Shown in pieces: positions 54,563 to 59,877 of a stretch of 64,000 nucleotides of DNA. The DNA is taken from contig NZ_CP012200.1 of the NCBI RefSeq assembly GCF_001484685.1, positions 180,321-244,320 on the forward strand. The letters run 5' to 3'. A program made the translations under genes and the position numbers. Position 1 is the stretch's first letter; each line of letters begins with the position of its first letter. The notes below the pieces were generated by a model, which was not told where the DNA came from, did no database searches, and was given only the letters and a program-made list of their open reading frames with translations. Source of the stretch: Thermococcus sp. 2319x1. Its GTDB lineage: Archaea; Methanobacteriota_B; Thermococci; Thermococcales; Thermococcaceae.

Positions 54563-54732
54563 CCGTCAGGGGTTTTAGTGTTGTCTTTTGGAACTATTCG
54601 GTTGAATTGCCGAGTCGAGTATTAAAGTAAAGATAGGTGAGCAAAATAAATCTTACTCCCGAAATCAGAGACTTTTTGAGTTATCATGTTGTTGAGGTTT
54701 TTCAAGTATAACTTTACTGCTCCGCCTAAGCC
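54563..54732. other. Gap between the island and cbf5
   Basis: No gene is recognised. The base composition returns towards that of the surroundings, so this is the probable right junction of the island. Confidence 0.4.
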
Positions 54733-54740
54733 TTTATAAA
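54733..54740 (+). promoter_or_regulatory. TATA box of cbf5
   Basis: TTTATAAA about 50 bases before the ATG; the promoter indicates independent transcription of cbf5 in this genome. Confidence 0.6.
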
Positions 54741-54785
54741 GGGAAGAGGGGTATTAACTTCGATAACGCTCATTGGGTGATACCG

Positions 54786-55799
54786 ATGGCGAAAGAAAAG
54801 AGAAGAGAGAGAAAGCTAATGCTCCCGGCTGATATTAAGAGAGAGGTTGTTGTTAGGGACGAAAACGCCGAGACCAATTCAAAATGGGGCCTTCCTCCAG
54901 AAAAAAGACCGATTGAGATGCACATGCAATTCGGGGTCATAAACCTTGACAAACCTCCCGGACCTACAAGCCATGAAGTGGTTGCATGGATTAAAAAACT
55001 TCTGAACCTTAAAAAAGCTGGTCACGGTGGAACTCTTGATCCAAAAGTTACTGGAGTTTTGCCCGTAGCTCTGGAAAGGGCCACAAGAGTTGTTCAGGCA
55101 CTTTTACCGGCAGGTAAAGAGTATGTTGCTCTTATGCATCTCCACGGGGAGGTTCCAGAGGAGAAAATAAGGGCGGTTATGAAGGAGTTTGAAGGTGAGA
55201 TAATTCAAAGGCCTCCTCTAAGGAGTGCCGTTAAGAGAAGACTCAGGACAAGAAAAGTTTACTACATTGAGATAATTGAAATAGATGGCAAAGATATTCT
55301 GTTTAGAGTCGGCGTTGAGGCTGGCACTTACATAAGGTCTCTCATTCATCACATTGGTCTGGCCTTGGGAGTTGGTGCTCACATGGCTGAGCTCAGAAGA
55401 ACAAGAAGCGGACCGTTCAAGGAAGATGAAACCCTTGTTACCCTGCATGACCTCATAGATGCTTATTACTTCTGGAAAGAGGACGGTATTGAAGAGTACT
55501 TCAGAAAGGCAATTCAGCCGATGGAGAAAGCAGTTGAACATTTACCCAAAGTGTGGATTAGGGACTCTGCAGTTGCAGCTGTAACCCATGGAGCAGACCT
55601 TGCCGTTCCCGGAATTGTTAAGCTTCACAAGGGCATAAAGCATGGGGATCTCGTTGCGATAATGACCCTCAAGGACGAGCTTGTTGCCCTTGGAAAGGCC
55701 ATGATGACAAGCGGTGAGATGCTCCAGAAGAGTAAGGGAATAGCGGTCGATGTCGACAAGGTCTTCATGCCGAGGGACTGGTACCCGAAGATGTGGTAG
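54786..55799 (+). CDS. cbf5: tRNA/rRNA pseudouridine synthase Cbf5 (H/ACA RNP catalytic subunit)
   Basis: Pseudouridine synthase of the TruB family; in archaea it works with guide RNAs, Nop10, Gar1 and L7Ae to modify rRNA, and can act on tRNA. The length is 337 residues. The catalytic aspartate lies in GGTLDPKVTGVLP (about residue 80), and the C-terminal PUA domain includes VTHGADLAVPGIVKLHKGIK. The ATG at 54786 follows GGGTGAT with a four-base space; a GTG at 54777 overlaps that site. The sequence closely resembles Pyrococcus Cbf5. Confidence 0.95.
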   Translation: MAKEKRRERKLMLPADIKREVVVRDENAETNSKWGLPPEKRPIEMHMQFGVINLDKPPGPTSHEVVAWIKKLLNLKKAGHGGTLDPKVTGVLPVALERATRVVQALLPAGKEYVALMHLHGEVPEEKIRAVMKEFEGEIIQRPPLRSAVKRRLRTRKVYYIEIIEIDGKDILFRVGVEAGTYIRSLIHHIGLALGVGAHMAELRRTRSGPFKEDETLVTLHDLIDAYYFWKEDGIEEYFRKAIQPMEKAVEHLPKVWIRDSAVAAVTHGADLAVPGIVKLHKGIKHGDLVAIMTLKDELVALGKAMMTSGEMLQKSKGIAVDVDKVFMPRDWYPKMW

Positions 55800-56047
55800 A
55801 ACCTTTGCTAAGCAAAGTTTCATCAAAGTTGGCACGTGTTCTTTCTCTTGGCGATTATTTTGTTGCTTTCCCTTAAAATTCCCTTCCTCACAAGGGGGTT
55901 TCTTTATAAGCACCCGAAGGGCGCAGGAGATAGTAAACCCATTAAAAAGGAAAGCCCTAAAAACTTGCCCCGTAAACAGCACGTACAAACTCTCTTCAGC
56001 CCTTCTTAACAGTAATTGTTTGGTCAAGCTTTGCGTAAGCAAAGGTT
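55800..56047. mobile_element. Non-coding 248-bp segment with inverted-repeat ends, MITE-like
   Basis: The left end (55800-55828) reads AACCTTTGCTAAGCAAAG and continues TTTCATCAAA; the reverse complement of the right end (56019-56047) reads AACCTTTGCTTACGCAAAG then CTTGACCAAA. They agree at nearly all positions over 29 bases with one-base length difference. Each end is itself palindromic. The interior has no gene, but a TATA-like TTTATAAGC at about 55901-55909. It begins directly at the cbf5 stop. A decayed or non-autonomous insertion element is the likeliest reading. Confidence 0.5.
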
Positions 56048-56223
56048 GCTAGGAGGGCTTCACCCCTTACGCTTCGACTTTGGATCCCATAAAATGATTG
56101 TTTGTGCTCTTTTGTTCACTCTTTTACTCTGGCTTCTTTCGTTTGAATCAGCTCGGATTTTAATGGTTGTAAGTTGAAAACCTTACGAAAAAAACTTTAG
56201 TTAATTCAACTAATAAAAGAAAA
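56048..56223. other. Gap with AT-rich promoter region
   Basis: No frame or RNA is recognised. A palindromic TTAGTTAATTCAACTAA lies near 56198-56214. With the MITE-like segment this accounts for the non-coding 477 bases after cbf5. Confidence 0.4.
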
Positions 56224-56232
56224 GCTTTTAAG
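56224..56232 (+). promoter_or_regulatory. TATA-like box of the small secreted protein gene
   Basis: CTTTTAAGG, about 50 bases before the start codon, after an A-rich stretch. Confidence 0.4.
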
Positions 56233-56276
56233 GATTTTAACGTTACATGTAGTAATAATCTCCAAAGGTGTCCTCT

Positions 56277-56720
56277 GTGGAGGATTGGGCCAAAAAGGTT
56301 TGCGGGGTAGTGTTGCTAGCTATACCCCTAAGCCCGGGCTTCAACGTTGCCTACGGGGCAAGAAATACGACTGAATTGAAGCCCGAAGAGGCATACTGGG
56401 CTCTAGAACTCCAGAAAGACCTCCCTCCGATAGAGCTTAATGAAACCACAATGGCAATGATTGAAGGTTACTCGAGCGAGATAGTTGAGGAGTTCAACAG
56501 TGAACTTTGTACCATGAGTGACGAAGAAATGCTCCGTGAGGGCCTCACAAAGGAAGATATCAAAAAAGCCAGGGCGTTCTGCAGACTGCCTGATGAGGCA
56601 AAGTTGAAAATCATCAGAAATAGACTCCTGCTCAGCGTGTACCTAACTAACGCTCGTTGCTCGGCCCTTAAACAAACAGAAATAACGCCAATAATAACTT
56701 GTGGAGCGCTGGCACGATAA
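56277..56720 (+). CDS. Small exported cysteine-containing protein, unknown
   Basis: About 147 residues. The head EDWAKKVCGVVLLAIPLSPG resembles a signal peptide, with possible cleavage after VAYGA. The remainder is charged and mostly helical, with four more cysteines (ELCTMSD, AFCRLPD, ARCSALK, ITCGALA) that could form two disulfides outside the cell. I recognise no family. The GTG at 56277 lies seven bases after AAAGGTG; a GTG at 56268 overlaps that site. The next gene begins 18 bases after the stop and may be cotranscribed. Confidence 0.55.
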   Translation: MEDWAKKVCGVVLLAIPLSPGFNVAYGARNTTELKPEEAYWALELQKDLPPIELNETTMAMIEGYSSEIVEEFNSELCTMSDEEMLREGLTKEDIKKARAFCRLPDEAKLKIIRNRLLLSVYLTNARCSALKQTEITPIITCGALAR

Positions 56721-56737
56721 ATGCTGAGGTGATCCGC

Positions 56738-57406
56738 GTGAAGCGTTCTAAGACTCTGTACTTCGCCCTTCTTATCTGTTTTCTGTTGATAGCTGGTGGG
56801 ACGTATTACCTCCACGGCCGGAGTTCTGGCAATATGGTGGAACCCGAGATAAAGTTCAACGCCACTAACCTTAAGCCTCTCAATTCAAACCTGACACTTG
56901 TGTACAGGTCGCGCGAATATTCCAATGGGGAATTGGTTCAAAACTCGACGAGAATCTTTACGATATCCAGGAAGGGAAACGATATTATCATGGTTGAGAG
57001 GTTCAGGACGGAGTGGTGGCAACCGAGCTACTCACTTTATGAAGGAACTACTCATGCTGAAATAGCTAATTCAACTCCAATAATATATCAGCCGGACGGT
57101 TCCATCTTTGTTAAGGGAAAGCGGGCCGAGGTTGACCTTTTCAGGATTGGGTATCCCTATTCTCCCGTATTCGAGCAGCTGAAGGCTGAAAAGGGCTATA
57201 CACTCAGGTTATGCTGCGCCAATCTCACTGTGGAGAATGTGAGGACTATAAATGGGAGGGAGTGTATTATAGTGAAAGCAGAAACTGAAGATGTCACCCT
57301 CAAACTTGTCATCGACGCCAAGACGCGCCTGCTCCTATGGAGATGTGGGTTGTCAGGAGACCAAAGGAGTTGCCAGTGGGAAGAGTGGCTAATCTCTTCC
57401 AAATAA
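56738..57406 (+). CDS. Membrane-anchored extracellular protein, unknown
   Basis: A 222-residue protein with one N-terminal membrane helix (SKTLYFALLICFLLIAGGTY) and an extracellular domain of predicted beta structure with five cysteines (CCAN, ECIIV, WRCGL, RSCQW) and several N-x-S/T sites. The start GTG is two bases after a perfect GAGGTGATCC, which decides it over the open frame upstream. The fold resembles periplasmic beta-rich lipoprotein-like domains, but no family is recognised. Confidence 0.65.
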   Translation: MKRSKTLYFALLICFLLIAGGTYYLHGRSSGNMVEPEIKFNATNLKPLNSNLTLVYRSREYSNGELVQNSTRIFTISRKGNDIIMVERFRTEWWQPSYSLYEGTTHAEIANSTPIIYQPDGSIFVKGKRAEVDLFRIGYPYSPVFEQLKAEKGYTLRLCCANLTVENVRTINGRECIIVKAETEDVTLKLVIDAKTRLLLWRCGLSGDQRSCQWEEWLISSK

Positions 57407-57594
57407 ATCCCTTCACCCTAGTTCCCACCACCTGTGAAGTTGTACAGTTCATCAAGATTAACTGCCAGAATTGCTCCTAAAATCCTGACAGTCAAACCCC
57501 TCAAACTAACACTCGTTCGCTGATTATTGGGTAAATCTCGGATTTTATAAGCAAGATTTCCTCCTGAAAATTCACAACAACCACCAATCACTCA

Positions 57595-57605
57595 AAAAAT
57601 TTAAG
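57595..57605 (+). promoter_or_regulatory. TATA-like box of the 324-residue membrane protein gene
   Basis: AAAATTTAAGT, about 50 bases before the start codon, in an otherwise gene-free gap of 244 bases. Confidence 0.4.
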
Positions 57606-57650
57606 TACCTAACGACCCGATGGGAACTAGGGTTGTGAGGTGGTATGTGG

Positions 57651-58625
57651 ATGAGAGGGAAGAAACATTTTCTCCTTCTAAACTTTTTTATTGGGGCAGT
57701 TTTTCTGGCAATCCTGTTCCACTACGCCCTTTCGCTTTCATTGGGGGAAAGCTTCTTATTTGCAGTCATCTTGTCACTTCTCTACACCTCTGCGCATATT
57801 TTCTGGAAAAGATCAGATAAACAGCAGAGAGAGTCTCAATTTTTAAAATCTCCAAGTATCGGGTTTATACTCTTTGTTCTGATTTCGTTTGGGTTCGGAG
57901 TGCTTTTATTTGAGCTTATCCACGCGGCGTTTGCAAAACCGGGCACCTCTTTCATCCCTCTCGCCAAAGTGCTCGGCGTTTTGTTCATAATCGGCGCGTC
58001 TGTGCTGTTCCTCGTGGCAATGCTACATGAGAGGGGTAAGAAAACACCCGAAAAAGTCGTCTATTCCTGGCGAAACTTCCTCAAGGAACTTTCAACGTCC
58101 CTCCTTCTCTTTACAGTTGCATACTCCTCCGAGGTGAGTTTGGAAAAGAGCGTCTCGATGGCGCTTTACGTTTTTGTTTTGGCCAGCTGGTACTATTCCA
58201 TGATGGCTCACAAGTATGTGATATCCGGGCGGATACTTAAAATCAGGGCCGTTGTAATTTTTGTGGCGGTCACTTCCGGGCTGTACCTGTTCGTAATTGA
58301 CAACATAGTGCTAAGTGGGCTGATTGGAGCACTTTTCGCGGTTGTGTCTGAAAAAGACTACAAGATAACCAGGAAACTTGTGGCAGAGGGGTTGCTGGAG
58401 AAGAAATACGCCGAAAGCGGAGCCTGGCGCCTGTTTTACGCTATCTTTTATGGATTTGGGGCGATGGTAGCTTTGATGATAATCACTGGGGATTACAGTG
58501 CCTCGTTTATCAGGGAATCTTTGTTAACGGTGTTCAGGCTCCTGTACATATTTACGACGATTTTCCTCCCCTTCGGGACGCTTGGCGGGTGGTTAAGGTT
58601 GAAGATTCATGGTGGAAAAACTTAA
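57651..58625 (+). CDS. Polytopic membrane protein, unknown
   Basis: A 324-residue protein with about nine to ten hydrophobic segments and a charged central loop (HERGKKTPEKVVYSWRNFLK). No known signature is seen. The ATG at 57651 lies seven bases after GAGGTGG; an ATG at 57645 lies directly against that site. The gene is followed by a decayed gene and two small membrane proteins, a group that looks like accessory DNA of unknown purpose. Confidence 0.65.
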   Translation: MRGKKHFLLLNFFIGAVFLAILFHYALSLSLGESFLFAVILSLLYTSAHIFWKRSDKQQRESQFLKSPSIGFILFVLISFGFGVLLFELIHAAFAKPGTSFIPLAKVLGVLFIIGASVLFLVAMLHERGKKTPEKVVYSWRNFLKELSTSLLLFTVAYSSEVSLEKSVSMALYVFVLASWYYSMMAHKYVISGRILKIRAVVIFVAVTSGLYLFVIDNIVLSGLIGALFAVVSEKDYKITRKLVAEGLLEKKYAESGAWRLFYAIFYGFGAMVALMIITGDYSASFIRESLLTVFRLLYIFTTIFLPFGTLGGWLRLKIHGGKT

Positions 58626-58810
58626 TGAACCAATAAAGTTGGGAAAAACTCTCTATTTGTCGCGTTCACTTGTCCACTAGGTTACTTTGATTTTGGCTTG
58701 TTCTCGTCGTTTTGATTTGTTTGGAATTGATAAATACTACAAAAAGCGTTGCCAAATACGACTCGTAAAAGAAAAATCTTAATTTTTATTAGCCAAGGTG
58801 AGGTAATCCC

Positions 58811-59172
58811 GTGAGTGTTTGGGGGTTAATTGTTTTGGTGGCATTTGATAATCATGGCAGTCGAGGTCATCCTTGGGGTATCAGGAAAAGTTGCAATAGA
58901 ACGGCACAAACATGTTATTCGGCCGGTTATCTGAGTTTGATGGCCTACTATAGAGGGGTATCTCTTGGGAGCGATGCTCGGGGTTTCCCTCCGGTTGCTT
59001 TCCGTGGTTGGGATCATAATCGTTATGTCGGCGTTGCTCCTAATAGGGTGAAAAGACCTGGGGGTGGTTACATAGACAAAATACTCGAGGAGGAGCTTTT
59101 GAGGACGTTCCTAATATTCGTCTACCACCAAGGCTGTGGATTGGGAGGAAACTTGGGGATGAGCTTTCATGA
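58811..59172 (+). pseudogene. Decayed membrane-protein gene
   Basis: No single frame reads like a protein, but pieces do. GTG at 58811 behind AAGGTGAGG starts MSVWGLIVLVAF in one frame. A second frame from 58854 gives MAVEVILGVSGKVAIERHKH, then, across two nearby TGA codons, EGYLLGAMLGVSL and a hydrophobic helix ending at TGA 59049. A third frame from 59053 gives RLPPRLWIGRKLGDELS and stops at 59172, overlapping the next start as ATGA. These indicate several frameshifts or stops in a former gene coupled to the next one. Confidence 0.5.
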
Positions 59173-59471
59173 AAGCGGTGTGGATGGTTCCCGTACCCTT
59201 CATGGTTGTTGTAGTGGTCTATGGTCTGTATGGGGGCAAAGCATTGCCGCTGGTCATTGGATTAGTGTCATTATTTCTCTACGTGCTCAGCCTTAGGGGA
59301 GAAGGGGAATCAATAAAGCTGACGGGCCTCGTTGCGATGTTCTCATCGATATTCGCACTGTGGGGGAACGTGCTTAAGTATCTGGCAATAATCGGCGTTG
59401 CCCTGCTGATTCTCCTTGAACTCTTTGTAGAGATGAGGAAAAAAGAAAACAGAGCTCGTTTGAGAAGGTGA
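59169..59471 (+). CDS. Small membrane protein, unknown
   Basis: A 100-residue protein with three or four hydrophobic helices and a basic C-terminal tail (EMRKKENRARLRR). The start ATG overlaps the stop of the decayed gene upstream (ATGA), and GGGGATGAGC lies before it. No family is recognised. It has probably lost its translational partner. Confidence 0.55.
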   Translation: MKAVWMVPVPFMVVVVVYGLYGGKALPLVIGLVSLFLYVLSLRGEGESIKLTGLVAMFSSIFALWGNVLKYLAIIGVALLILLELFVEMRKKENRARLRR

Positions 59472-59568
59472 TCTTGTGCTATGGATACTGTCCATCAATG
59501 CAAGTATGTGTTTATGCACTTGGGTTTATTAAGGTTAAATGTGGAACATTGTGGTAGGGTGGTAAAGC

Positions 59569-59847
59569 ATGTCTTGGATGGAGTATGGTGCATACGCGGT
59601 GATAATTGGTGGGCTTATCTACCTCTTTCTACTTTTTGCCTTCAGGGATTCTTTCGCAGGCCGTAGCAGGATCTCGTGGGCAATTCAACTGGAGATGGCG
59701 GTTTTCATGGTGCTTACGGGCTTCATAGTCTGGGGAATCTGCAGTGGGAACATTCCGTTTTACGTGATGGGTGCGGTCGGATGGATATGGCTTGCGGTGG
59801 TTATAGTGACGGTTTTGCTGTGGTTGGGGAGCGGTTCAAAGGTATAA
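59569..59847 (+). CDS. Small membrane protein, unknown
   Basis: A 92-residue protein with three predicted membrane helices and a short charged loop (RDSFAGRSR). The ATG follows GTAGGGTGGTAAAGC. No family is recognised. It ends 30 bases before the TATA box of the methyltransferase gene. Confidence 0.55.
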   Translation: MSWMEYGAYAVIIGGLIYLFLLFAFRDSFAGRSRISWAIQLEMAVFMVLTGFIVWGICSGNIPFYVMGAVGWIWLAVVIVTVLLWLGSGSKV

Positions 59848-59877
59848 CTGGCTGAAACCTCTTGGACATGACTTACC

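Follow-up and report, generated by a model that had tools for sequence, protein, structure and literature searches.

The DNA directly behind the pseudouridine synthase gene cbf5 of Thermococcus sp. 2319x1 raises the question of what kind of element begins where a protein gene ends, and by which route it came to lie there. In an earlier note, based on the letters of the window only (here, the whole analysed stretch of 64,000 nucleotides), the segment was described as MITE-like, i.e. as gene-free DNA between imperfect inverted ends that are themselves palindromic, starting at the cbf5 stop codon. The finding is real and larger than first seen: the copy belongs to a family that is unusually precise at gene 3' ends.

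Anatomy of the unit behind cbf5

The stop codon TAG of cbf5 occupies positions 55797-55799, and its start codon is either the GTG at 54777 or the ATG at 54786. The gene and the parts of the segment behind it are the following.

54786..55799, plus strand: cbf5, TruB/DKC-type pseudouridine synthase (Pfam TruB_N, TruB_C_2, PUA and DKCLD; from sequence and open reading frame)
55799..56048, no strand: complete repeat unit of 250 nt (hairpin, body, hairpin), both borders placed by script
55799..55821, no strand: left border hairpin GAACCTTTGC-TAA-GCAAAGTTTC with a single C.T mismatch (from sequence; the fold pairs its CTTTGC/GCAAAG core)
55822..55838, plus strand: left box ATCAAAGTTGGCACGTG, conserved beside the border in alignments
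55896..55940, no strand: central stem-loop GCACCC-GAA-GGGCGC with a single A.C mismatch, flanked by GGGTTT and AAACCC (from sequence and fold)
55980..55986, plus strand: right box CACGTAC, complementary to the left GCACGTG save for one mismatch in 7 positions (from sequence)
56025..56048, no strand: right border hairpin CAAGCTTTGC-GTAA-GCAAAGGTTG with a single G.G mismatch (from sequence, fold and border script)

The first base of the unit coincides with the last base of the stop codon. Directly after the TAG the sequence reads AACCTTTGCTAAGCAAAGTTTCATCAAAGTTGG; the reverse complement of the right end is GCAACCTTTGCTTACGCAAAGCTTGACCAAA. Common to both are AACCTTTGCT, a spacer and GCAAAG, with spacers of 2 and 3 bases at the two ends. 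Because of this difference an ungapped repeat finder misses the ends as an inverted pair, and scores the two palindromic ends as a direct repeat of 27 nt at 70%. The structural description in the earlier note is largely borne out: the segment does begin where cbf5 stops, both of its ends form hairpins with one mismatch apiece, and no plausible gene lies between them, the listed open reading frames (166 and 100 aa) entering cbf5 out of frame. As to the inverted ends, the opposite-orientation match with its further bases stands, with the qualification that the spacers are unequal. The arms of the unit are partly complementary, with a TTTGGTC that reaches the right hairpin. The fold of lowest energy for this copy contains the hairpins of the two borders as well as the central stem-loop, without the outer GGGTTT/AAACCC pairing, and together with its flanks the copy folds only moderately better than shuffled sequences (z -2.0).

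A repeat family across Thermococcaceae, often placed at gene 3' ends

The end motif GCRAAGTTTSATCAARGTT (type Y, at most 1 mismatch) is found in 74 of 94 Thermococcaceae genomes, with 735 matches altogether and none for the reversed pattern in any of the 94. The largest number per genome, 26, is reached in G040, G048, G050 and G089, while 20 genomes, including all 9 of genus g2, have no match. A second type of unit, X, is recognized by the border motif AAGCGCYGGCGGAA, which is present in 71 of the 94 genomes (reversed hits, 6 altogether). A scan of named genomes gave 106 exact matches; among the 80 listed, 64 belong to Thermococci and 16 to scattered bacteria, the latter being taken as chance. 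Viral contigs contain no exact end motif and plasmids gave no match for the two units queried, so a virus or plasmid source was set aside. Rfam assigns no family to the unit in the window, where tRNA alone matched at the gathering score, nor to any unit in a scan of 8 loci, 7 of which hold units, where only tRNA and sR36 were called. The family is widespread and apparently undescribed so far, no description of such repeats having been found in the open-licence PMC literature with the terms used.

Thermococcus sp. 2319x1 itself is poor in copies. The pattern CTTTGC-N2-5-GCAAAG occurs at 6 places of its 1.96-Mb genome, 2 of which are the ends of the window unit (reversed control, 0); a 301-base query matches at one place only (E<=0.001), and the type Y motif, at up to 1 mismatch, has one match; no second intact unit of this type was found in the genome. 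The X border motif also has one match in this genome and is absent from the stretches of it that were searched for the motif. None of its 46 tRNA genes carries a border at the threshold used for G048, and degenerate border remnants are seen by eye behind tRNAs at 702450-, 1194052-, 451474- and 1248482+.

Within the genus, the unit as query recovers homologues behind cbf5 in G002, G004 and G005, a shortened one in G001, and further matches that are scattered left-end copies. A scattered unit of G004, used in the same way, recovers near-full-length copies at other loci (one in G002, two in G005) and partial copies in G002, G005 and further genomes; of 28 loci scanned, 18 contain a tRNA gene.

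Aligned two-ended units share a common layout, which runs from border hairpin, box and GGGTTT through the central stem-loop to AAACCC, a complementary box and the second border hairpin. The boxes vary by subfamily and keep their complementarity (GTGATTC/GAATCAC, GTAGCTCC/GGAGCTAC, GTACGTG/CACGTAC); the last pair matches at 7 of 7 positions in G002, G004 and G005 and has one mismatch in the window copy. At the position of the central stem-loop other units have GCGCTCC/GGAGCGC or GACGCCC/GGGCGTC. The border stem pairs co-vary as CTTTGC/GCAAAG, CTTCGC/GCGAAG and CTTTTC/GAAAAG, the second form, a compensatory change, being that of the left border stem in G001, G016 and G051.

Folding was evaluated on 118 units from all fetched loci, distinct over their first 60 bases, with 15 shuffles each. 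Their length ranges from 240 to 339, mostly 260-310, with clusters at 260-275 and 295-305; the median fold z is -5.8 and 96% lie below -3, as against a median of -0.3 and 7% below -3 for 60 control stretches taken 350 nt beyond units. The unit behind cbf5 in G051, for example, folds as hairpin, long rod and hairpin, with z -6.9 under RNA and -4.8 under DNA parameters. Covariation is modest in an alignment of 12 G044 and G048 units of one subfamily, where 7 of 71 pairs have two-sided changes; the consensus structure of the cbf5-linked units, whose alignment mixes subfamilies, has just 19 pairs and is not informative. Many genomes thus carry dispersed members of the family, complementarity between the arms is retained, and units occur in arrays.

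Concerning placement, a large share of the borders follows a tRNA gene or the end of another gene at a distance of 0-7 nt. The regions fetched for this count, 60 in number, cover all type Y motif places in G040, G043, G044 and G048 and 5 of the 6 in G014. They hold 113 end copies at up to 2 mismatches, including a few near-palindromic second hits, and 33 of these have a same-strand tRNA within 60 nt upstream as called by ARAGORN, which leaves some tRNA-like 3' ends uncalled. The distance from tRNA to hairpin is 1-7 nt in 32 of the 33, and 32 nt in the remaining one. In the named sample a same-strand tRNA 3' end lies within 400 nt of 33 of 117 exact motifs, and 31 of these ends are 15-23 nt before the motif, which corresponds to a hairpin directly behind the tRNA. 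In G048 a border follows 17 of 44 tRNA genes (8 of type Y, 9 of type X), and 27 have none at the threshold, one of which is X-like by eye. At 3 of 12 further sites (L308:1252, L278:2566 and L274:2005) an open frame closes with its stop codon 0-1 nt before the hairpin. In L277, L282, L316 and L307 it follows a stretch whose motifs, read by eye, we take to be C/D-box-like; Rfam did not call this stretch in L277, L282 or L316. Many other unit ends sit within arrays, beside other units. A stretch of ~80 bases (GCCCGACGAGT..GTTGCGATGACGTCGGGACCCCCAGGGGGGCGACAG..) that directly precedes a border hairpin is closely alike in three genomes (L271:2972, L312:2021, L308:2264) and is perhaps an unannotated small RNA gene.

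Movement between sites and probable exchange in the window

The cbf5 site is variable in relatives. Units of the same type as that of the window stand behind cbf5 in G064, G096, G002, G004 and G005. Among 18 Thermococcaceae loci the site holds a unit in 7, none in 10, and is unreadable in 1; among 28 parsed genomes of genus g3 (G014 being counted in both surveys) it holds a type Y end in 8, a type X unit in 5 and neither in 15. The X units of that genus lie directly behind the TAG, and one of the 8 type Y ends, in G069, lies ~35 nt past the cbf5 stop. The right border and its position with respect to the methyltransferase promoter are nearly the same in G014, G043 and G059, with bodies of types Y, Y and X, a pattern that suggests exchange of unit bodies. 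A GC-rich repeated module (CTGTACTCTCAAA..GTGGGGCTTCGCCCCAC.., with close variants) was also noticed behind cbf5 in G098, G074, G051 and G067 (L338, L350, L349 and L323), and the same module occurs at unit junctions elsewhere.

Near-identical copies are also present at different loci of one genome. Two loci of G044 are alike over 463 bp at 97.6%, in a tract that opens with the inner arm of a border hairpin and runs out within the next unit. In G048 the same X unit stands behind two different tRNA genes, both Leu by the anticodon read by eye, and the identity stops shortly past the unit end. Such copies, together with the different units found at the cbf5 site, show that sequence moves between sites. 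The G044 tract, running from a hairpin into a neighbouring unit, is more readily explained by gene conversion than by whole units transposing.

For the window, the way in which the unit arrived can be approached through two further features.

55580..55700, no strand: changeover from G004-like sequence (same genus) to sequence like G096 and G064 (other genus), from sliding identity and alignment
56049..59876, plus strand: additional 3.8 kb separating the unit from the methyltransferase, not in G004 or G005

In steps of 100 bases, 54600-55499 is 97-100% identical to G004; through 55500-55799 the identity to G004 drops from 94 to 78% and that to G096 climbs to 92%; and 55800-57299 is 94-100% identical to G096, the BLAST match to which extends to 57417. 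The interval 57418-59476 has no match in any of the four fetched stretches, and from 59877 onwards identity is 93% to G004 and only ~77% to G096. This switch of identity suggests that the end of cbf5, together with the unit and no less than 1.3 kb behind it, was most likely exchanged with a strain of another genus, which would also account for the arrival of the window unit. In G004 and G005 the methyltransferase stretch begins ~25 bases past the unit. The interval between the two is variable among species and has the look of a hot spot of exchange. The five open reading frames that it contains in the window, at 56268-59847, match no Pfam family above the cut-off.

Mode of spread and relation to known systems

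We consider, with slightly better than even confidence, that the unit belongs to a non-coding interspersed repeat family that spreads as non-autonomous DNA at gene 3' ends, and spread in the manner of a mobile repeat is the best reading of the data. Units would insert as DNA behind genes, and would also be passed on by recombination or gene conversion between units, for which the shared hairpins and tRNA ends may supply the homology. A precision of 0-7 nt behind unrelated genes would be unusual for transposition and purifying selection alone, and poses the question of which machinery recognises a gene end.

A doubtful alternative is that the unit is part of a structured RNA, transcribed behind tRNA, small-RNA and protein genes and acting in 3'-end formation, processing or stability; gene conversion would then disperse it and selection would keep its pairing. 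Placement behind tRNAs and stop codons, the strong folds, better than shuffles across the family and at only z -2.0 in the window copy itself, and the pairing retained with changed letters all agree with such a role. G.T and A.C mismatches were compared on the gene-sense strand after the arms had been aligned strand-symmetrically. A first set of 42 units gave a G.T:A.C ratio of 262:121. The larger, de-duplicated type Y set, i.e. the 60 of 91 units that passed the arm-score cut (31 were dropped for low scores), gave 396:221 where composition expects 1.22:1, with a binomial p of 4e-6 if sites are independent, the units sharing ancestry. Per unit, the excess is uneven, being of G.T in 36 and of A.C in 20 (sign test, p 0.04), and X units, 6 of 26 of which passed the cut, show no asymmetry (19:16). 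As the signal of the first set weakened in the larger one, the asymmetry is a hint of an RNA role rather than proof. Against such a role count also the 27 of 44 G048 tRNAs without a border at the threshold, the lack of an Rfam family in the window and the 8 loci, and the fold of the G051 unit, which is strong under DNA parameters as well; the portion consulted of the T. kodakarensis transcript map (PMC4247193) mentions no such repeat.

We hold it to be unlikely that the unit is a MITE in the strict sense, moved in trans by a transposase of the DDE or HUH kind. Its inverted, palindromic ends, its length and its dispersion are those of a MITE, and the near-identical copies in G044 and G048 agree with mobility. 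Terminal inverted repeats are present, and several loci per genome are occupied in relatives (26 end motifs in G048), though not in the own genome. No target-site duplication was found above control, be it as repeats of 1-12 nt in 120 pairs, with borders also shifted by up to 3, where there is no excess over shuffled pairings, or, in 118 pairs, as repeats of 6-30 nt when some mismatch and border shifts of up to 6 were allowed, where 2 were observed and ~11 in the control. Nor does any of the fetched loci, with a reach of ~1.5-15 kb, contain a longer, coding version with the same ends; four consecutive inward-facing border pairs 530-653 bp apart hold open frames of at most 119 aa. A Y1 transposase (PF01797, genome-wide search) is present in 25 of the 94 genomes, including G050 and G049, and absent from the copy-rich G040, G048 and G089; its presence is not linked to the copy number of the unit (medians 8 and 5, p 0.50), and it was rejected as the mover on this ground.

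Of the earlier MITE-like label, the dispersed family and the inverted palindromic ends hold, while the target duplications that it proposed to look for do not appear, the fetched loci contain no full-length element with a transposase, and there is no link to Y1. Because target duplication, a defining feature, was looked for and not found, membership among MITEs is withheld. The copies that the earlier note proposed to search for are many in related genomes, with a single intact one in the own genome. The contrary case that it had named, a sole copy that every relative has unchanged in this place, agrees with the latter and not with the many copies elsewhere or with the different units, or none, at the cbf5 site of other species.

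A further, highly improbable reading is that of an RNA-level parasite with the size (~250-300 nt) and rod shape of a viroid, attached to or copied onto transcript 3' ends and returning to the chromosome. The ends used would be those of tRNA, small-RNA and some mRNA transcripts, the joint copy going back at the same gene; this would account for the precise placement within 0-7 nt, for a spacer that is short and variable, and for the missing target duplication. A simple terminator, or a palindrome that arose by chance at cbf5 only, to which the position after a stop codon and the hairpins might point, is ruled out by the family counts (735 motif matches over 94 genomes, control zero) and by the two-ended units with their narrow length range, and is given next to no weight.

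Taken as a mobile repeat, the unit resembles several known systems in part. By description it is like the enterobacterial ERIC and similar repeats, which are also intergenic, dispersed, non-coding imperfect palindromes of one to a few hundred bases with a likewise unclear mode of spread; it differs from them in being archaeal, in its separate border hairpins at both ends and in its precise start at tRNA 3' ends. With MITEs it shares shortness, lack of coding capacity, inverted ends and many copies, and it departs from them in that neither target duplication nor partner element was found and that complementarity runs through much of the unit. REP/BIME sequences with their RAYT (TnpA-REP) are likewise intergenic hairpins in inverted pairs, but the Thermococcaceae unit is longer and, as for IS200/IS605-type elements, carriers would be expected to hold a Y1 transposase, which is present in 25 of the 94 present-day genomes and has no link to copy number. 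Casposons and tRNA-targeting integrative elements also lie at tRNA 3' ends; unlike them, the unit has no genes, occurs behind protein genes too, and in 118 single units shows no copy of the tRNA 3' end at the far border, i.e. no repeat of 12-30 nt within 6 nt.

Thermococcus genomes are described as rearranging fast although insertion sequences or repeats make up a low fraction of them (PMC2718504), and tRNA genes lie at recombination endpoints according to PMC5495485. A repeat with as many as 26 end motifs in one genome, often in arrays directly behind tRNA genes, is an obvious recombination substrate, for which T. kodakarensis offers a tractable host to test its role. As a separate observation, G004 carries five copies of a Y1 transposase whose match scores are identical, which suggests that an IS200-like element has recently been active in that genome.
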